Source of the DNA: Laspinema palackyanum D2c
Lineage (GTDB): Bacteria > Cyanobacteriota > Cyanobacteriia > Cyanobacteriales > Laspinemataceae
Reading direction: 5' to 3'
Length of the DNA: 64,000 bases
Assembly (NCBI RefSeq): GCF_025370875.1
Contig: NZ_JAMXFD010000001.1
Location: forward strand, 286,182-350,181
The position numbers were made by a program, and so were the translations under genes. Below the pieces are notes generated by a model. That model was not told the DNA's origin and searched no databases. It was given only the letters and a program-made list of their open reading frames with translations. Below, in pieces: positions 22,255 to 31,912 of this stretch (its first letter is position 1; each line of letters opens with the position of its first letter).

Positions 22255-25053
22255 ATGAAAGTCTGGCTGCACGGTTTGTTTTCGGTAATTTTCTGGCTAT
22301 GGAATCTCACATTTTTAGGCATTGTTTATCTGGGTATCTTACCTTGGATAGCCATCCCCTTAATTCGGGCAACCGTTGAGGGAATCATCCCCGTAGAATT
22401 TACCTTGGCAGTCACCGGGGCGATCGCCATTCCCACAGTTTGTACCATAATCGGGACCAAATTACGCAAACATCCCTTACAACTGATTCGCCTGTTTTAT
22501 GGCGTCGAAGCGCCCTTATTTGCCCTCTGCCTGGTGCGGTTATTCATGTTGCGAGAAATGACCGGCGCCAGTAATCTGCTCGTTGGAACTGCCGGGGTGG
22601 CAATGGCTGCATTTGGACTAGAATTATTCTATGGCTATGCCAAGGGCGATCGCAAGTTAGCTTGGCTACAACTCGCCACCCACAGTTTAATGTTATTAAT
22701 GGGCCTCTATCTCGGCGCATTATTACTTTTCTATGTTGTTCCCTTCACCGTCTTTTTTGCCGGTTACCTTATCAGATTTGAGTGGGTACAGGGAATCATT
22801 AATCTATTCGAGTATGAATCCTGGAATGCAATCTGGTGGGTCCCTTTTTCATTTTTCTTATGGGGATTCAGTGCCACCTTATTCATTGCCATGCCTTCCG
22901 CCCTCGCTACCTTTCATATCTATTCCGGCTACAAAATCATCAAACAATTTGCCGCTCAATACGGACGAAAATGGGCAGTATTTGGGTCAGGCGTCGTAGT
23001 GACAGCCTGGATGGTGCTATTTTTATCGTTTCAACAGCAACCCCAAATTCAAGCCTTTAAAAGCTTAGAAAACCCAGCAGCCACGGATCGAGAACGGCAA
23101 GAATTGTTAGGAAAATCGAACTTAATTCGCCAAGGACTGCTCAACGCTTATTTACTTTCCTATCGCTATTTGAGTACCCATGAAGATAATAATCACATCC
23201 AGGCCATGTATCAGGACCTCTTGGGAATAGAGGAATCTACCGCGCAAGTCTTGCAGAATTGGTATAATGGGTTAATGTCACCCTTTTTGTACCAAGGGTC
23301 GCGAGAAGATAGCGAAAAAGCCGCCACCCTCTACGAGCAATTTTTTGATACGCCCATCCAAAAGGGAGAAGCCAAAACCATTTTACACGCGGCGCAATCC
23401 ACCTTTAATCGAGAAGAAGCCAAAGCGGGATTACTGAATATTAATGAACAACGAGTTTTGCTAACTCAACAAGAAATTATTGTCACGGAACGGGGAGATT
23501 GGGCCGATGTAGAATTGTATGAGGTTTATGAAAACCAAACCCCTCAAGATGAGGAGGTTTTTTACTATTTTTCCTTGCCGGAAAGTGCAGTATTAACCGG
23601 AGTTTGGTTAAATGAAACCGCCGATCGCAGCGATCGCTACGTCTTCCAGATTTCCCCCCGGGGTGCCGCCCAACAGGTGTATAATGACCAAGTGCGGCGC
23701 AGTATTGATCCAGCACTATTGGAACAAGTTGGACCCCGACAATATCGCCTCCGAGTGTTTCCCGTCCCCGCCCGCCTCACTTCCTTTGACAATACTAACC
23801 GCCTAGAACAGCCGAAACAACATCTCTGGTTAACTTATAAAGTCATGCAAAGCGCCCAAGGTTGGGCGATGCCACAACTGGCAGAAAAACGGAACGTCTT
23901 TTGGAATCGCACAACCCAGCGCCAGTATAACGGAGAAACAGTAAAACGCCTCGGTGATGCTTGGATGCCGGAGTTTCTCCCGGCAACTAATCCCCCCTCA
24001 CTCACCGCACATCAGGTCACTTTACCGGGAGATTACCAGATTTTCGCACAACCTTTAAGTGACAGAGATTATATTTTACCCCAAGGGAAACGGATTGCTG
24101 TCATCGTTGATCGCTCTTATAGTATGCGATCGCACGGCAAAGAAGTCACAGAAACCGTAAATTGGCTAAAACAAAACGGATTTGCCGATAACCGTTTTGA
24201 TAACAACGATGCGGATATTTATTTAACCGCCTCACCCGGTGGGATTCCCCTGCGTCTGGACAATATCGGTGAGTTGAATCCAGCCAAAATCACCTATTAT
24301 GGCAGCCTCAACTATCGGGAAATGTTGCAGCAGTTTCAGGAATTGCAGGGGAATACAACTTATGATGCCGTCGCCTTAATTAGCGATCGCGGCAGTTATG
24401 AATTAGCCAAAGATAGCCCTGATTTGCTCACCCTCTCCAGTCCCTTATGGATGGTCCATTTAGGGGGATTACCCCGGGCGTATGATGACGGCACTTTACA
24501 AGCCATTCAAGGCAGTTCCGGAGGCGTTTCCACGGACCTAGAGGAGGTATTACAGCGCATCGCCACCACCGCTAAATTAGGCCAATCTACGGTGAGTGTG
24601 GTGGATGGATATCGCTGGGTTGTAGAGAAACCGGCGAAAGCGGATCTCGCCACCTTACCGCAAACTTTAGCCAATGCAACAGTTCCAGACAAAGCGGGAT
24701 TAGAAGCATTAGGGGCAAGGCAACTGATTTTGGCGTTATCTAAACAGATGAATGCGGCAAGTATAGCGGATTTAGATGCAATTCATGCCATTGCCAAACA
24801 CTATGAAATTGTCTCCCCTTATTCCTCGGCGATCGTGCTGGTTAACGAGGAACAAAAGCAACAGCTAAAAGAAGCAGAATCCCGCAGCGATCGGTTTAAT
24901 CGGGAAATCGAAGATGGGAAAGAACAATTGCAGCAACCGGACGATATGATGAGTGTGCCGGTTCCGGAACCCCATGAATGGTTAGGAACAATTGGGGCGA
25001 TCGGGCTGTTGATTTTTGCCAAGCGCAAATGGGGTAAAAAATCTGTGAGATAA
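22255..25053 (+). CDS. PEP-CTERM-type integral membrane protein with VIT-like domain
   Basis: A 932-residue protein. The first 260 residues carry about seven transmembrane helices. The middle part (about 420-550) resembles a VIT domain (QEIIVTERGDWADVELYEVYENQTPQDEEVFYYFSLPESAVLTGVWL), and 615-780 resembles a von Willebrand A-like fold with IAVIVDRSYSMRSHGKE, an incomplete MIDAS. The C-terminus has a PEP-CTERM-like sorting signal: VPEPHEW, a hydrophobic helix (LGTIGAIGLLIFA) and the basic end KRKWGKKSVR. The arrangement fits the TIGR02921-type PEP-CTERM membrane protein of bacteria with exosortase systems. Its role is unknown; context suggests envelope or exopolysaccharide. No exosortase is in this window. 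Confidence 0.82.
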   Translation: MKVWLHGLFSVIFWLWNLTFLGIVYLGILPWIAIPLIRATVEGIIPVEFTLAVTGAIAIPTVCTIIGTKLRKHPLQLIRLFYGVEAPLFALCLVRLFMLREMTGASNLLVGTAGVAMAAFGLELFYGYAKGDRKLAWLQLATHSLMLLMGLYLGALLLFYVVPFTVFFAGYLIRFEWVQGIINLFEYESWNAIWWVPFSFFLWGFSATLFIAMPSALATFHIYSGYKIIKQFAAQYGRKWAVFGSGVVVTAWMVLFLSFQQQPQIQAFKSLENPAATDRERQELLGKSNLIRQGLLNAYLLSYRYLSTHEDNNHIQAMYQDLLGIEESTAQVLQNWYNGLMSPFLYQGSREDSEKAATLYEQFFDTPIQKGEAKTILHAAQSTFNREEAKAGLLNINEQRVLLTQQEIIVTERGDWADVELYEVYENQTPQDEEVFYYFSLPESAVLTGVWLNETADRSDRYVFQISPRGAAQQVYNDQVRRSIDPALLEQVGPRQYRLRVFPVPARLTSFDNTNRLEQPKQHLWLTYKVMQSAQGWAMPQLAEKRNVFWNRTTQRQYNGETVKRLGDAWMPEFLPATNPPSLTAHQVTLPGDYQIFAQPLSDRDYILPQGKRIAVIVDRSYSMRSHGKEVTETVNWLKQNGFADNRFDNNDADIYLTASPGGIPLRLDNIGELNPAKITYYGSLNYREMLQQFQELQGNTTYDAVALISDRGSYELAKDSPDLLTLSSPLWMVHLGGLPRAYDDGTLQAIQGSSGGVSTDLEEVLQRIATTAKLGQSTVSVVDGYRWVVEKPAKADLATLPQTLANATVPDKAGLEALGARQLILALSKQMNAASIADLDAIHAIAKHYEIVSPYSSAIVLVNEEQKQQLKEAESRSDRFNREIEDGKEQLQQPDDMMSVPVPEPHEWLGTIGAIGLLIFAKRKWGKKSVR

Positions 25054-25320: not shown

Positions 25321-25875
25321 ATGGCAACGACACTGGCACAAATTGGACAATATCTGGATAACCGGGGAGGGGGCTATGATTTGCAAGAGGCCAACTCGCA
25401 GATTATCACGGGATATGAGGCGCAGAATGTTGAGCGATTTCTCATTGTGATTCAGTTACAGGAAGAGGGGGAGTATCTGTCTGTGTTTGTCCCCGAACTG
25501 TTGCAGGTGAAAGATCATGTTTATAAAGGGGTGGTGTTTCAAACCATGCTGGCGATCGCCTGGTCCGTGAAGTTCCTGCGGTGGGAATATGACCCCAGTG
25601 ATGGGGAAATCCGCGCCAGTATTGGGTTTGCCTTGGAAGATGCCGCCTTGACGGAACGCCAATTTAACCGGGTTCTGGACGCGCTGATTCATCTGGTGGA
25701 TGAGGTAGCGATGCCGCGTCTCCAGGCGGTTCTGGCAACGGGCAATGATCCCGGGGTTCCTGAGATGGCACAAGATATCGCTGCTGCACTGGCGCAATTG
25801 CTGCCCGACGGGAGTTTAGAAGCACTCCAACAGGCGATCGCCTCCCATTTGCAGTCCCGTTCCGAAGGGGAATAA
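25321..25875 (+). CDS. YbjN-like (secretion-chaperone fold) domain protein
   Basis: Start at ATG 25321, with GAGAGG six bases upstream; 18 upstream codons in the frame are unsupported. The 184-residue protein begins MATTLAQIGQYLDNRGGGYD and carries an alpha/beta domain (residues 1-150) that resembles YbjN / type III chaperone-like folds. The block W.VKFLRWEYDPSDGEIRAS...LEDAALTERQFNRVL...LATGNDPGVPE is closely matched in the N-terminal 145 residues of the CHAT protein at 27868, showing that the two are paralogous modules at opposite ends of one locus. The C-terminal 35 residues are an extra helix pair. It probably opens an operon with the sigma-like and DUF1822 genes and may be a sensor or chaperone. 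Confidence 0.75.
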   Translation: MATTLAQIGQYLDNRGGGYDLQEANSQIITGYEAQNVERFLIVIQLQEEGEYLSVFVPELLQVKDHVYKGVVFQTMLAIAWSVKFLRWEYDPSDGEIRASIGFALEDAALTERQFNRVLDALIHLVDEVAMPRLQAVLATGNDPGVPEMAQDIAAALAQLLPDGSLEALQQAIASHLQSRSEGE

Positions 25876-25877
25876 TC

Positions 25878-25919
25878 ATGGCAAACCGATATCACCAGCA
25901 GTCAGGAGGTGACCGATGA
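25878..25919 (+). CDS. Possible 13-codon leader ORF coupled to the sigma-like gene
   Basis: A GAAGGGG motif precedes an ATG at 25878 that opens 13 codons (MANRYHQQSGGDR). Its TGA overlaps the ATG of the next gene (ATGA). It covers the sigma-like gene's strong ribosome site, so translation of the leader could couple to or gate the gene. Evidence is positional only. Confidence 0.3.
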   Translation: MANRYHQQSGGDR

Positions 25920-26791
25920 GCGATTTTCGCATAGACAGTTTCGAGTCCGGGATGAATGGCGATCGCGTAAATCTACCCTTGCTAGAATCTCGTGTAATCC
26001 CTGATAATCATGGCTGTACCCGTCGTCAGGGCGATCGCAATATGGACTTTATCGAAGCACTTTGCCACGAACTCAACGAACTGGTGCGCCAAGGGTGCCA
26101 GTACCCACCGCAACATCTCCAGCGGCGGAAAATTATGGACCAAATTGTTCGGAAAATCGAACAGTCTCGCCAACTCGATCTCAAGCGCACCCGGGAGAAC
26201 TTCCAGGACTATTCTGATGCCTTACAGCAGACTTGGCTGTATTTTTCCAAGAACCTATACGAAAAATACGACCCCAATCTCCCCGGCAGTTGCCTGATAC
26301 CCTGGTTAAGGACGTATCTGGAAAAACGACTCCTCGAATTCCAGATCGGCGACTGTACTCGCCCCAAGGACCCCAAAACCGGCGAACGGAAGCGCCGGAA
26401 CATTTTCTACGCGCAACCCGTGGCAGACTCCGAGGGCAACTTACTCAATCCCCTGGACTTGATCGCGGCAGAAGGCGACCCCCAGCCCCTGCTGAATGAC
26501 ACCTTAGACTGGGTGACAACCGACCCTAGCGGCATCTTGCAGCGAGTTACCATGCGCGATCGCCAGGATATAACAGCCCAAGTGGTCTTGAAATTGCTCT
26601 TACCTCCGGATTGCCTAAATCAGACGGAACTCGCCAAACACTTGCACCTGCCGCAACCCAGCAGCATCCAAACGTTCTATAAAAAATCCCTGCGCCTGTT
26701 GCTGGAATATTGGGAATTCGACGACCCCCAAATTCAAGAAATCTTGGCATCCAAAAAAACCAGCAAAAAACAACCCGGAGGTGAGTCCTAA
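25916..26791 (+). CDS. Atypical sigma-70-like transcription factor
   Basis: A 291-residue protein with a perfect ribosome site AGGAGGTGA before the ATG. Residues about 43-150 resemble sigma region 2 of a cyanobacterial sigma-like family (MDFIEALCHELNELV, then SDALQQTWLYFSKNLYEKYDPNLPG, then WLRTYLEKRLLE). The C-terminal 70 residues resemble region 4: ITAQVVLKLLLPP, the HTH LNQTELAKHLHLPQPSSIQTFYKKSLRLLLEYW. The recognition HTH is plausible, but canonical -10 recognition motifs are not obvious. It is followed without a gap by the DUF1822 gene (TAATG overlap). Its target promoters are unknown; the nearby CHAT gene is a natural candidate. Confidence 0.65.
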   Translation: MSDFRIDSFESGMNGDRVNLPLLESRVIPDNHGCTRRQGDRNMDFIEALCHELNELVRQGCQYPPQHLQRRKIMDQIVRKIEQSRQLDLKRTRENFQDYSDALQQTWLYFSKNLYEKYDPNLPGSCLIPWLRTYLEKRLLEFQIGDCTRPKDPKTGERKRRNIFYAQPVADSEGNLLNPLDLIAAEGDPQPLLNDTLDWVTTDPSGILQRVTMRDRQDITAQVVLKLLLPPDCLNQTELAKHLHLPQPSSIQTFYKKSLRLLLEYWEFDDPQIQEILASKKTSKKQPGGES

Positions 26792-27603
26792 TGAGTACAA
26801 CCCAGATTCGAGAACAACCGATAGATGACTTCAGTATCACCATTCCCCTCACGGAAGAAGAGAGAGACATTGCGGATATCTTTGCCGTCACCCAACCCAA
26901 CCCCGAAGCAGCAGAACGAGTGCGCTGTAACACCCTCAGCGTGATTGCCGTCGCCTTTTATTTAGACCTGCACCAAATCGAAACCGATATCACATCCGCA
27001 CAACTCTGGAACCGAAAACAACGGCAAACCCAGGATATTGCCGACTTGCCCTTACCGGGAATCGGATGGATAGAATGTCGCGCCTTTAGTCCGGACCAAA
27101 CCGAAATCCGCCTCCCGCCACACCCCAACCCCCAAAGAATTGGCTATGTCGGAGTCGAACTCAACCCCGACACCCCCGAAACTGCCAAACTCCTGGGATT
27201 TGTCGCCCATTCAGACAGCACAACCCCCCTGGAAACCTTACACCGAGAGCAATTAGGCTCCCTAGACAATCTCCTTGATGTCCTCACCCGTCTAGAACTC
27301 CTAGGGGCAATTTTAGCCGCCCGAGACGACTCACCCCTACCCGAAACCCTGCGCCAAAGAGCCATTACCGAACTGCAACGAGTCTACGCCGCCAGTCCCC
27401 ACGAACCCTGGGAATGGGCCGGTTTAGCGGAACAGCGATTATTTGACGACACCCTCACCCGTAACAGCAAAGACCTGATGGTAACAAAAAACCGAGAAAC
27501 CCCCACCCAATCAGACCCCGATAAACACCGCCTCCAGCAGCGCTCATTTTTAGAGTCCGTCCTCGAAGAAATGGACGAACAATGGCGCAAATTAAGCGAA
27601 TAA
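26791..27603 (+). CDS. DUF1822 family protein
   Basis: A 270-residue protein with GGAGGTGA upstream and a start overlapping the sigma-like stop by one base (TAATG). The block NTLSVIAVAFYLDLHQIETDITSAQLWN, then IADLPLPGIGWIECRAF, then RIGYVGVELNPD and AKLLGFV, is the characteristic DUF1822 pattern, a cyanobacterial family of unknown function. Here the family's usual N-terminal part is short. In this locus it sits between the sigma-like gene and the CHAT gene, so it may be an anti-sigma or adaptor factor, but that is inference. The C-terminus is polar and helical (QQRSFLESVLEEMDEQWRKL). Confidence 0.8.
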   Translation: MSTTQIREQPIDDFSITIPLTEEERDIADIFAVTQPNPEAAERVRCNTLSVIAVAFYLDLHQIETDITSAQLWNRKQRQTQDIADLPLPGIGWIECRAFSPDQTEIRLPPHPNPQRIGYVGVELNPDTPETAKLLGFVAHSDSTTPLETLHREQLGSLDNLLDVLTRLELLGAILAARDDSPLPETLRQRAITELQRVYAASPHEPWEWAGLAEQRLFDDTLTRNSKDLMVTKNRETPTQSDPDKHRLQQRSFLESVLEEMDEQWRKLSE

Positions 27604-27620
27604 CTCCAGTCGCAACAAAC

Positions 27621-27745
27621 GGCGGGGGTTAAAACCCCCGCCTCATAGCTAAAGTCGTCTAAAGACGACTGCAAGCCTTATCCCGTGGTGTTTTTAGTCG
27701 GTTTCAACCGACTTTAGCTGTTAGGCGGGGGTTTTAACCCCCGCC
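27621..27745. repeat. MITE-like palindromic element A
   Basis: A 125-bp near-palindrome. Both ends are hairpins built of GGCGGGGGTT and AACCCCCGCC (27621-27642 and 27724-27745). Inside each, AGCTAAAGTCG lies in inverted orientation, so the terminal inverted repeats reach about 45 bp. The centre holds TTATCCCGTGGTGTTTTT. Related sequences occur at 31572-31672, 31928-31978 and, as a single end, at 44741-44762. Two copies of GCCGGGTGTTGCCGCTACTT follow directly (27743-27789). Confidence 0.85.
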
Positions 27746-27867
27746 GGGTGTTGCCGCTACTTACCCCGCCGGGTGTTGCCGCTACTTACCGCACTCCCAA
27801 AACCTCATAACAATGGGAAACCCTATCTCGTCCCCCCCAACCCAAATCACAACCCAAACCCATCACC

Positions 27868-30800
27868 ATGACAACCACTCTCGAACAAATCACCCAATTC
27901 CTCGACGCCCAAAACTGGACCTATCAAACCGAACCGGAAAACCACTGCATCCACCTTACCAGTGAGGGACTGCCAGTCATCCTCAACCTAGAAGAAAATG
28001 GCGAACTCTTAAACTGCTTTATCCCGCAACTCCTCACCATCCCAGCAGAACATCCCTACGCCGAAACCGCAATGGCAACCCTGCTGCACCTCGGATGGGA
28101 ACTCAAACTCGTGCGCTGGCAACGGGACCCCTCCGATGGCGAAGTCCGCATCACCACCGAAATCCCTCTAGAAGATGGCACCCTCACCCCCCGCCAGTTC
28201 CAACGCACCCTCACCGAGTTAGTGGAGTTAGGAAAACGCACAAAACAGCGCCTCGAAACCGTATTAACCACCGGAGACGACCCCGGAATGCCAGACCCCT
28301 CGGGTCCCTCCACCGGGCATGAGCTCCTCAAATTTCTGCAAGCGCTGATAGAGGCAGAACTCCCAGGAGGGGAGGAAGATGTCCACCGCCTATTATCCGC
28401 CCATCTCTCCTTACTAGACCAACGGTTTGTGGCAGCAATCACCACCCTCGCCCATGTTATCTATACTAAAGGGGATTTAGAACAGTCGGAGATGATGGCG
28501 GCATGGATTGGAAACCTCAGTATCCGCATTCAAGAGTTTTCCGGGGGTAATGTTCTGGAGAATCAGAAGATTGCCATTGCCGGTTACCAGTTAGTCTTAG
28601 AAGCTCATCCCCGAGAGCGCGTTCCCGACAAATACGCCCAAACCCTCACCAACCTGGGGGTTGCTTACTGCACCCGCGCCAAATTTGGAGACAATAGCGC
28701 AGAAAACCTGAGTTTGGCAATTGCTGCCTATCAGGAAGCTGAGAAAATCCGCCGCGAACTGAAATTGTCCAAGGATTTGGCAACCACTCTCACCAACCTG
28801 GGGGTTGCTTACTGCACCCGCGCCAAATTTGGAGACAATAGCGCAGAAAACTTGAGTGAGGCAATTACTGCCTATCAGGAAGCTGAGAAAATCTGCCGCC
28901 AACTGAACTTGTTCAAGGATTTGGCAAGCACTCTCAACAACCTGGGCACTGCCTACCTCACCCGCGCCGATTTGGGAGACAATAGCGCAGAAAACCTGAG
29001 TTTGGCAATTGCTGCCTATCAGGAAGCTGAGGAAATCTGCCGCCAACTGAACTTCTTCAAGGATTTGGCAGGCACTCTCACCAACCTGGGGACTGCCTAC
29101 CGCAACCGCGCCGATTTGGGAGACAATAGCGCAGAAAACCTGAGTTTGGCAATTGCTGCCTATCAGGAATCTGAGGAAATCCTCCGCGAACTGAAGTTGT
29201 TCTTCAAAGATTTGGCAAACACTCTCAACAACCTGGGGGTTGCTTACTGCATCCGGGCCGAATTGGGAGACAATAGCGCAGAAAACCTGAGTTTGGCAAT
29301 TGCTGCCTATCAGGAAGCTCAGGAAATCCGCCGGAATCTGAACTTGTTCAAGGATTTGGCAGGCACTCTCAACGATCTGGGGAATGCCTACCGCAACCGC
29401 GCTCTATTGCGAGACAATAGCTCAGAAAACCTGAGTTTGGCAATTGCTGCCTATCAGGAAGCTCAGAAAATCTACCGCGAACTGAACTTGTTCTTCAAGG
29501 ATTTGGCAGATACTCTCACCAACCTGGGGAATGCCTACCACAACCGCGCCGAATTTGGAGAAAATAGCGCAGAAAACCTGAGTGAGGCAATTGCTGCCTA
29601 TCAGGAAGCTGAGGAAATCCGCCGCGAACTGAACTTGTTCAAGGATTTGGCATATACTCTCAACAACCTGGGGATGGCCTACTTAACCCGCGCCGAATTG
29701 GGAGAGAATTCAGTAGAAAACCTGAATTGGGCGATCGCTGCCTATCAGGAAGCGTTACAATACTTGCCACCCAAATTACAACCAGCCAACTGCCTGACAA
29801 CTGCCAAAAATCTCGTTCGCTTGGCAATGGGTCGCCAGGACTGGAATCTCGCCCTGGATGCCTCCCAAAAGGCCATTGAGGCCCTAGAACAAAGCCGCGC
29901 CTGGGCGAAAACTGAGGCCCTGCGTCAGGATATCATCCACCAGGGGATTCGGGTTTATGAAAATGCTATCCAAGCTGCGGTGAATTGCGATCGCCTGGAT
30001 TTGGCCCTGCAAATTGTCGAACGGGTGCGCTCTAAACGTCTGGTAGACTTGATGGCAACCGCAGACCTCTATGCCGATGGTCAGGTTCCAGAATCGGTGC
30101 GCCAAAAACTTGACCACCTGCAACAGCTACAACAACAAATCGACGCCCAGCGTTCCCTCCTAGAAGGTTCCTCCGATTCCTCCACCGGCAACAAAAGTCC
30201 CTTCGCCGCCATCCACCGCGCTGCTACCGAGGCCCTCAGTGAGGAAATTCTCGCCCTGGAAACCGCAAAACAGCAGGTCCTGGATGCACTCAGTCAGGAG
30301 GATAATGTCATCGCCAAACTCCAACAAGTCGTTCCCCTGGAGTTGGCACAAATGCAAGAATTGCTGGATAAACCCACCGTCGCCCTCCTCAGTTTCTATA
30401 CTACGGATGATGATACTCACATTTTCATCCTGCGCGGCGATGGCAGTCTCCACCGTCATACCTGTGCCGGTCAAGGATTCAACACCCTCCAGGGCTGGTT
30501 AGTGGAGACCTGGGTGACGCCTTATGCCGGGATTGGGGCGGCGAACGAAGCGGAACGACAGATCCGTAATGAGATATGGCAAGACCAAATGCCGCAGGTT
30601 TTGCAGGAACTCTCCCAGCGTCTGGAGTGGGATAAACTCATTCAAGACTACCTAGAAAATATTGAGGAACTCATCCTCATCCCTCACCTATACCTGCATC
30701 AAATCCCGTTTGTCGCCCTGCCTACGGACAGTGGGGAATACTTCGGAGACCGATTCCGGTTACGCTATGCCCCCAGTTGCCAGGTGTTGAGCTTCTGCCA

Positions 30801-31560
30801 CAGTCGTCCCTCGGTACAGGATACCACCTACGGCACCGTAGAAAATGCCACGGATGATTTACCCTTTACCCGCTTTGAAGGGGATATCGTGGCCCAACTC
30901 TTTCAGATCCCCCCAGAACGCCGGTTGCGGGGTAGTCAAGCGGCCACGGGGGAGGCCTATCGCGGTCTTTTGGAGGTCTGTACCCATCTCCTCTCGTCTC
31001 ACCATGCCGAAACTCGGTTTGATAATCCCCTGGAATCGTTCCTCCGTCTGGGCAATGGCACGATTACGGTCAGCCAATTACTCTCCCCGGGGTGGCGCTT
31101 CCCGGAACTGAGTGATATTTTTCTCTCCTGCTGCGAAACCGGGTTGAATCTGCCACAAAACCTCGCCGATGAACTGATTACCCTGGGGACCGGGTTTCTC
31201 TGTGCCGGGGCCCGGGCGGTTTTGAGCAGTCAGTGGTCCGTCGGGGATATCTCTACGGCGCTGCTTTCGGGATTGTATCATGAAGCTCGCCAGAAAGGGT
31301 GCGATCGGGCTTCGGCGCTGCAACAGGCGCAACGGCAATTGCGGGAGTTGACTGTGGATGACTTTGTGAAGGAGCAAAAAAAACGGTTGTATCAATTACA
31401 GAAACAAGCTGAAAAGGAGGGGAATCTTCAGGCATCGGAGGATTATACGGGTATTCGCACACTGGTGGATGATTTTGTGAAGAAAATCAAGGATCCAACT
31501 GTCCGGCTTTTTAATCACCCGGTTCATTGGGCAGCTTTTCGATGTGAGGGGTTGGGGTAG
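27868..31560 (+). CDS. YbjN-like / TPR / CHAT caspase-like protease fusion
   Basis: A 1230-residue protein. Residues 1-145 are a YbjN-like domain paralogous to the product at 25321 (shared W.LKLVRW..DPSDGEVR...LEDG.LT.RQF). Residues about 250-640 are eight near-identical TPR-type units of 48-49 residues (KDLA.TL.NLG.AY..RA..GDNSAENLS.AIAAYQEA..I), then two more helical TPRs and a coiled coil (EQSRAWAKTEALRQDI..., HLQQLQQQIDAQRSLL). Residues about 880-1230 are a CHAT domain with LIPHLYLHQIPFVALP, catalytic His (His1045/1046 in HLLSSHHAE) and catalytic Cys1089 in FLSCCETGLN, followed by GARAVLSSQWSV. All active-site motifs are intact. CHAT proteases are caspase relatives used in separase-like and bacterial defence or cell-death signalling. 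Target and trigger are unknown. Confidence 0.93.
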   Translation: MTTTLEQITQFLDAQNWTYQTEPENHCIHLTSEGLPVILNLEENGELLNCFIPQLLTIPAEHPYAETAMATLLHLGWELKLVRWQRDPSDGEVRITTEIPLEDGTLTPRQFQRTLTELVELGKRTKQRLETVLTTGDDPGMPDPSGPSTGHELLKFLQALIEAELPGGEEDVHRLLSAHLSLLDQRFVAAITTLAHVIYTKGDLEQSEMMAAWIGNLSIRIQEFSGGNVLENQKIAIAGYQLVLEAHPRERVPDKYAQTLTNLGVAYCTRAKFGDNSAENLSLAIAAYQEAEKIRRELKLSKDLATTLTNLGVAYCTRAKFGDNSAENLSEAITAYQEAEKICRQLNLFKDLASTLNNLGTAYLTRADLGDNSAENLSLAIAAYQEAEEICRQLNFFKDLAGTLTNLGTAYRNRADLGDNSAENLSLAIAAYQESEEILRELKLFFKDLANTLNNLGVAYCIRAELGDNSAENLSLAIAAYQEAQEIRRNLNLFKDLAGTLNDLGNAYRNRALLRDNSSENLSLAIAAYQEAQKIYRELNLFFKDLADTLTNLGNAYHNRAEFGENSAENLSEAIAAYQEAEEIRRELNLFKDLAYTLNNLGMAYLTRAELGENSVENLNWAIAAYQEALQYLPPKLQPANCLTTAKNLVRLAMGRQDWNLALDASQKAIEALEQSRAWAKTEALRQDIIHQGIRVYENAIQAAVNCDRLDLALQIVERVRSKRLVDLMATADLYADGQVPESVRQKLDHLQQLQQQIDAQRSLLEGSSDSSTGNKSPFAAIHRAATEALSEEILALETAKQQVLDALSQEDNVIAKLQQVVPLELAQMQELLDKPTVALLSFYTTDDDTHIFILRGDGSLHRHTCAGQGFNTLQGWLVETWVTPYAGIGAANEAERQIRNEIWQDQMPQVLQELSQRLEWDKLIQDYLENIEELILIPHLYLHQIPFVALPTDSGEYFGDRFRLRYAPSCQVLSFCHSRPSVQDTTYGTVENATDDLPFTRFEGDIVAQLFQIPPERRLRGSQAATGEAYRGLLEVCTHLLSSHHAETRFDNPLESFLRLGNGTITVSQLLSPGWRFPELSDIFLSCCETGLNLPQNLADELITLGTGFLCAGARAVLSSQWSVGDISTALLSGLYHEARQKGCDRASALQQAQRQLRELTVDDFVKEQKKRLYQLQKQAEKEGNLQASEDYTGIRTLVDDFVKKIKDPTVRLFNHPVHWAAFRCEGLG
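28621..29780 (+). repeat. Eight tandem ~144-bp repeats coding TPR units
   Basis: Units are 48 codons, and two or three of them carry one extra Phe codon (TTCTTC before AAG GAT TTG). DNA identity between units is very high, especially around GACAATAGCGCAGAAAACCT, implying recent expansion. Confidence 0.9.
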
Positions 31561-31789: not shown

Positions 31790-31912
31790 GATAACGCCTG
31801 AAGTCGTTACTACGAAATAAGATAAGATAACGCCTGAAGTCGTTACTACGAAATAAGATAAGATAACGACTGAAGTCGTTACTACGAACTAAGAGGGATA
31901 ACGACTGAAGCG
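31790..31912. repeat. Three and a half 36-bp tandem repeats
   Basis: Units start at 31790, 31826, 31862 and (partial) 31897, each beginning GATAACG(C/A)CTGAAGTCG and containing TTACTACGAA. They are tandem copies of the end motif of the element at 13885-14111. Confidence 0.85.

Follow-up and report, generated by a model that had tools for sequence, protein, structure and literature searches.

What connects a gene for a caspase-like protease with genes for a sigma-like factor and a protein of the DUF1822 family is the question raised by four neighbouring genes of the cyanobacterium Laspinema palackyanum D2c. They lie in a stretch of 64,000 nucleotides (nt) of its 7.03 Mb genome (contig NZ_JAMXFD010000001.1, positions 286,182 to 350,181, forward strand), here called the window, and are present where a first-pass annotation made from the letters alone had placed them, with positions of the open reading frames (ORFs) matching 25321-31560. 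That the four are a real, conserved module is well supported by their recurrence elsewhere. The features of the locus, in window coordinates, are as follows.

25321..25875, + strand: stand-alone YbjN-like protein of 184 residues, ATG at 25321
25916..26791, + strand: predicted extracytoplasmic function (ECF)-type sigma factor, from its predicted fold
26791..27603, + strand: short-type DUF1822 protein (PF08852, E 1.3e-33)
27328..27594, + strand: diverged tail domain inside DUF1822, proposed protease-docking/substrate module, from a profile compared with column shuffles
27621..27788, no strand: GC-rich inverted repeats and a 25-nt direct repeat pair between the DUF1822 and CHAT genes
27868..31560, + strand: YbjN-TPR-CHAT protease-like protein of 1230 residues, from Pfam
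28642..29799, + strand: eight 144-nt (48-residue) TPR units in the CHAT gene, from a DNA-level repeat scan

Profile matches in 120 genomes of the order were found for YbjN in 36, for the sigma-like protein in 69 and for DUF1822 in 111, and cassette order was mapped in 28 stretches. The host genome has a second complete cassette, on contig C14, with YbjN, YbjN-TPR-CHAT, sigma and DUF1822 following each other on the same strand, and the same order is present in genomes G008, G060, G038, G097, G009 and G080, with up to three small ORFs interposed. Near a contig end in G005 only YbjN-TPR-CHAT, sigma and DUF1822 are seen, and the window and G113, of the same genus, have the order YbjN, sigma, DUF1822, YbjN-TPR-CHAT. 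A CHAT-domain profile with 11 seeds, ten found through YbjN and the eleventh (L072) through sigma, gave 18 places at E ≤ 1.5e-144 in 388 genomes (the 11 seeds and 7 new), and at all 18 sigma and DUF1822 lie on the same strand within five genes; for further CHAT places, fetched near rank order with a few skipped, both are within five genes in 16 of 33. The co-occurrence anticipated by the first-pass annotation is also seen from the side of the sigma gene, in the 80 top-ranked of 246 loci, retrieved with the sigma sequence as the sole query: 44 have both DUF1822 and CHAT within five genes, 53 have DUF1822 on the same strand and at most five genes downstream, directly after sigma in 47 of them, and 49 have CHAT within five genes. 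In the host genome a CHAT gene lies within ~6 kb of five of the eight DUF1822 genes. The earlier suggestion of a functional cassette gains from the clustering of the same four families in other genomes, and of sigma, DUF1822 and CHAT far more widely; for its suggested role in stress response or regulated cell death there is no evidence in the present data. What looks like a split gene in L076 is apparent only, that record having masked stretches.

The protease-like product has the YbjN-TPR-CHAT architecture claimed for it, with CHAT (PF12770, E 3.6e-33) at residues 912-1226, TPR_12, and a YbjN domain (PF10722) that is marginal at 24.1 bits against a cut-off of 22. The histidines at 1045/1046 and the cysteine at 1089 are intact as had been stated, H1045, H1046, C1088 and C1089 all being present, and in an alignment with Csx29 H1046 and C1089 land on the His and Cys of CHGE and GACET stretches. 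All six of its matches in the Protein Data Bank, the best at E 1.2e-7, are CHAT chains of Craspase/Csx29 type, and a His...[C/S]CET motif, scored as a simple pattern in the fetched loci, is kept in 65 of 66 CHAT proteins of the clade. By its domain and His/Cys pair the window protein is a CHAT (caspase-like) protease, with proteolysis as the predicted activity, and to our knowledge no such cyanobacterial CHAT protein has a tested substrate. At the DNA level seven of the TPR units are 63-93% identical to the reference unit, several above 85%, the pattern to be expected if the sensor array varies in length and has been expanding recently.

The most useful finding, and one new here, is a C-terminal tail common, by sequence comparison, to DUF1822 proteins, antitoxin-like proteins of the XRE-HTH kind and several others. 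Beside CHAT genes of the clade that are without sigma and DUF1822 are pairs of a gene for ~135 residues and a gene for ~237 residues, and in L179, the sole locus scanned with Pfam, the two are Gp49/HigB-like (3.8e-9) and HTH_3 (8.4e-9). A gene for 132-137 residues is directly 5′ of such a tail-bearing protein in nine loci, with gaps of -35 to +5 nt. The last ~80 residues of the 237-residue protein match the ends of the short DUF1822 proteins, with E values as low as 1e-20, and after iteration the tail family has 34 members, with proteins of ~150 residues and one of 175 residues among the other carriers; the N-terminus of the latter presumably resembles TRADD-N. With a tail profile of 14 rows, all from neighbours of clade CHAT genes, 33 matches were obtained in 25 of the 120 genomes searched, and at least 21 of these 33 genes are within 7 kb of a clade CHAT gene where ~0.1 would be expected, 21 being a lower bound because the clade comprised the best CHAT matches only; without three seed loci the count is at least 18 of 30. 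Measured by HMMER against the tail profile, the end of the window DUF1822 reaches 3.7 bits, which is not significant, though at the right place, but a three-sequence profile for the window scores 25.5 against it (hhalign probability 44), a score reached by none of 300 column shuffles, and on this profile evidence that end is a diverged copy of the tail. Neither the tail, which is not searchable by name, nor a YbjN-TPR-CHAT cassette was found in the open-access literature. A separate group of loci (L205, L206, L211, L213, L214, L216 and L217) has tail proteins of ~140-170 residues, mostly 3′ of a ~230-residue protein and with no CHAT seen nearby; one relative of the ~230-residue protein was scanned without a family being found, and a TDLI...CIQIT stretch, judged by eye, may be a degenerate nuclease motif.

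The end of DUF1822 mostly tracks the layout of the protease, a relationship new here that reflects few independent events. The sample is 101 non-identical DUF1822 proteins from fetched loci, part of them fetched by the TPR-CHAT profile; 60 have an extra C-terminal part and 41 are without it. For 87 of the 101 a same-strand CHAT gene, of one type or the other, lies no more than six genes away. The extra part goes with an N-terminal CHAT in 49 cases and its absence with the TPR-CHAT clade in 37, no protein without it being paired with an N-terminal CHAT, so that the full table, with CHAT domain position checked, is 49/0/0/37 with one unclear (L202). Tail and extra part occur together in three DUF1822 proteins, of which those of L203 and L204 have both protease types around them, and that of L202 has only an 89-residue piece of an N-terminal-type protein and a C-terminal CHAT that is not in the clade. 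A universal rule, by which the extra part would always mean an N-terminal-CHAT partner, was abandoned since it is broken by Picosynechococcus plasmid loci L221, L224 and L225. These came among nine records of one later search, in which three Nostocales plasmid loci follow the pattern and the remaining three show neither sigma nor DUF1822 in the fetched stretch when scanned with these profiles. A related sigma-DUF1822-CHAT locus on plasmid pAQ6 of the laboratory strain PCC 7002 is among the exceptions to the rule. On the mobilizable plasmids of L221, L224 and L225, sigma-DUF1822-CHAT adjoins a DisA-type diadenylate cyclase, an ATP-binding protein and another CHAT.

Identification of the second gene of the window as sigma-like is backed by an AlphaFold2 model and fold searches, which place a sigma-2 domain at about residues 45-152 and a sigma-4 domain at about 191-271; homologues align only from about residue 45. 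The window protein has no Pfam match at E<1 and no TIGR02937 match, and across the 80 sigma loci sequence-profile matches are weak (Pfam Sigma70_r2 in 6, TIGR02937 in 24); the closest named record, 81% identical, is from Laspinema palackyanum. The predicted fold supports a sigma-2/sigma-4 (ECF-type) factor with a predicted role in directing RNA polymerase to promoters. None of the 80 loci has a sigma-DUF1822 fusion. A 648-residue protein of L075 (1251-3197) has a sigma-like domain at its C-terminus and an N-terminal part without assignment. Separate recruitment of the sigma-DUF1822 pair in the genus of the window is favoured by profile scores, its sigma having 148 bits against the classical profile and 4.9 against the cassette profile, and trees neither show nor reject a single origin: for sigma the approximately unbiased test of single origin gives p 0.37 and 0.12, for DUF1822 the one-sided placement has branch support of 91/97, and the concatenated sigma and DUF1822 tree has support of 42/20.

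In its predicted model the DUF1822 protein has a conserved alpha/beta core at about residues 10-165 and a helical C-terminal tail at about 180-268, in which residues 222-240 are a linker of low confidence. The published label of TPR protein was set aside, as there is no TPR_ family among the 19 families matched by 53 members, and helical matches to the tail in the VIA list were treated as noise. From position and analogy DUF1822 is a candidate anti-sigma factor. Elsewhere in the same genome a DUF1822 with a TRADD-like_N domain (PF20694, 3.8e-13; L020 8206-9294) adjoins two CHAT proteins.

The stand-alone YbjN-like protein of the window matched no Pfam model at E<1 and shares 41% identity with the CHAT protein N-terminus across 150 residues, the YbjN domain being present twice in this branch, alone and at the protease N-terminus. 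A stand-alone YbjN is also 5′ of cassettes L019, L056, L057, L059-L063 and L158-L160. YbjN proteins form chaperone-like dimers with a possible affinity for flexible chains (PMC5398634), and therefore the solo and fused copies could pair. As the CHAT protein of L072 (G037 C81) is without a YbjN domain, YbjN is optional and the core is sigma-DUF1822-TPR-CHAT. One early YbjN profile was contaminated by whole proteins; its tags on large proteins are left out here, and later scans were domain-only. An extra gene 5′ of three cassettes (L060 10887-11456, L061 11173-11802 and L062 4941-5567) has its YbjN tag from the contaminated profile only, without a match in the domain-only search, and its homology is unsure.

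The overlapping ends ascribed to the first three genes exist only between sigma and DUF1822, by one base (TAATG), the two being translated together, with a 40-nt gap between YbjN and sigma, and the strong ribosome sites claimed for all three hold, by eye, for sigma and DUF1822, which have good Shine-Dalgarno sequences, that of YbjN being moderate only. The CHAT gene start has no clear Shine-Dalgarno by eye, and the gap of 264 nt before it holds an inverted repeat; because of these two features the protease gene may be its own unit, transcribed separately from sigma and DUF1822. A pattern scan for promoters/terminators did no better than shuffles (8 found against 5.3 expected; 12 against 10.2), and when the upstream regions of the window, L056 and L076 were aligned they proved too diverged to name a promoter, the L056 stretch having begun at an over-long ORF. 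Three 36-nt tandem repeats are 3′ of the CHAT gene at 31790-31897. Among the neighbours, Pfam scans covered one gene upstream and two downstream, and an NCBIfam scan the upstream one; that upstream gene (22255-25053) encodes a PEP-CTERM/VIT-domain protein of the TIGR02921 family (1095.6 bits).

How far is the module already known? The earlier statement that no mechanism had been described needs amending, as an autopeptidase/transcription link was proposed for loci with ECF sigma and DUF1822 beside EACC2-caspase proteins (Kaur et al. 2021, PMC8195603) and Craspase is a worked example, in which the TPR-CHAT protease Csx29 cuts Csx30 and so frees CASP-sigma (PMC10028731). Because sigma with DUF1822 and a caspase-like protease was published in 2021, the window module is a variant of that theme, and what is new here is the TPR-CHAT form with paired YbjN domains. 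Like the EACC2-caspase systems, in whose network TRADD-N proteins also occur, it has ECF sigma and DUF1822 next to a caspase-superfamily protein (PMC8195603). In contrast to their constant N-terminal EACC2 and caspase module with variable C-terminus (PMC8195603), the window protein, compared by layout, begins with YbjN and has its CHAT C-terminal (912-1226 of 1230) after YbjN and TPR, its DUF1822 is without the C-terminal part found with N-terminal-CHAT proteins, and DUF1822, called a TPR protein in that source, has a different core in the present model. Most CHAT genes at the 80 sigma loci have the domain near the N-terminus, which by layout only is the arrangement described for EACC2 proteins (PMC8195603), and in the host genome L017 and L018, with sigma, DUF1822 and a near-N-terminal CHAT followed by CHASE2, can be called EACC2-like, again by layout only. 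The window protein shares the His/Cys pair of Csx29 but fails the family score (NF041237, 60.6 bits against a cut-off of 300), and unlike type III-E Craspase there is no array of clustered regularly interspaced short palindromic repeats (CRISPR) by direct-repeat scan in window 15000-45000. We know of no relation of DUF1822 to Csx30. The antitoxin-like pairs, outside the window, resemble HigBA-type toxin-antitoxin systems (Gp49/HTH), with the tail on the HTH protein and the same CHAT clade nearby; there the partner, as Pfam-scanned in L179 only, is toxin-like instead of a sigma factor.

By analogy the locus may be a CRISPR-independent protease-sigma switch in which the protease cuts DUF1822 and sigma is freed, a tentative reading given somewhat less than an even chance. 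The conserved core of DUF1822 would bind sigma and keep it inactive and its C-terminal tail would dock on the TPR-CHAT protease; the TPR/YbjN part would sense a trigger, on which CHAT would cut DUF1822, perhaps at the low-confidence linker, and the released sigma would transcribe a response. The stand-alone YbjN might pair with the fused YbjN, holding the protease off or presenting a ligand. DUF1822 as a sigma holder released by CHAT is favoured because of its position, the one-base overlap, the match of its end to the protease, the presence of the tail on antitoxin-like proteins, and the precedent of Craspase. The same clade also occurs near other tail proteins, at several loci with an XRE-HTH gene directly 3′ of the ~135-residue gene, as would be expected were the tail a transferable handle by which the inhibitor member of different effector-inhibitor pairs is held. 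The same one-base overlap fits the opposite sign, with DUF1822 as a chaperone or co-activator of sigma that the protease destroys to end the response, but in the precedent protease-sigma modules, Csx30 and RseA, sigma is released (PMC10028731), and the opposite sign is improbable. Scarcely less so is an effector role for DUF1822, either as a zymogen or as an enzyme and perhaps built on a degenerate PD-(D/E)XK nuclease-like core, which proteolysis would activate while sigma only drives expression of the locus. Unlikely, though deserving more weight, is a single defence or abortive-infection unit in which sigma does no more than regulate its own operon and CHAT kills through other targets with no protease cascade; related loci on conjugative plasmids next to integrase genes speak for it, as do one distant CHAT near bacteriophage exclusion (BREX) genes and the 43 CHAT places in the 7 Mb of the host genome, only five of whose eight DUF1822 genes have one within ~6 kb, whereas contact between DUF1822 and the protease is suggested by the match between DUF1822 end and protease layout and by the tail that other genes next to the clade also carry.

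Several observations weigh against release of sigma by cleavage of DUF1822. Neither DUF1822 nor CHAT is within five genes in 22 of the 80 sigma loci, some of them near contig ends, and three of the eight host-genome DUF1822 genes are without a CHAT within ~6 kb. Listed clade CHAT genes are not near 12 of the 33 tail matches, which include seven carriers of ~145-170 residues with no clade CHAT in the fetched stretch. For the eight other YbjN cassettes the pooled profile score is reached by 3 of 300 shuffles over just 19 columns, so the tail is not demonstrated there, and singly the best HMMER E is 0.086. For 10 of the 60 DUF1822 proteins with the extra part and 4 of the 41 without, neither type of CHAT is present in the stretch seen, and the three Picosynechococcus loci carry that part beside TPR-CHAT. 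The DUF1822 core tree needs only ~four changes, which makes the C-terminus rule too thin for a sign test, and an independent-pairs test has 2 pairs and is not significant. The DUF1822 model has no significant Foldseek match, whether anti-sigma or other, and in the window itself the repeat-bearing gap precedes the protease.

More broadly, the cyanobacterial TPR-CHAT clade could recognise a transferable tail on the regulatory half of different pairs and so release a transcription factor or a toxin, a possibility well short of an even chance. The pairs would be DUF1822/sigma and XRE-HTH antitoxin/HigB-like toxin, along with a TRADD-N-like protein, served by one protease chassis with interchangeable sensors, a generalisation to be held just as loosely. 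If true, this would be a plug-in, CRISPR-free relative of Craspase logic, and, if the switch proposed for the window is true, the protease-to-sigma wiring of Craspase would be one case of a wider CRISPR-independent design. A concrete candidate substrate, and a readout in the form of a sigma-dependent reporter, are offered by the tail together with the sigma/DUF1822 pair linked to it, and with them caspase-like signalling in multicellular bacteria would become testable.
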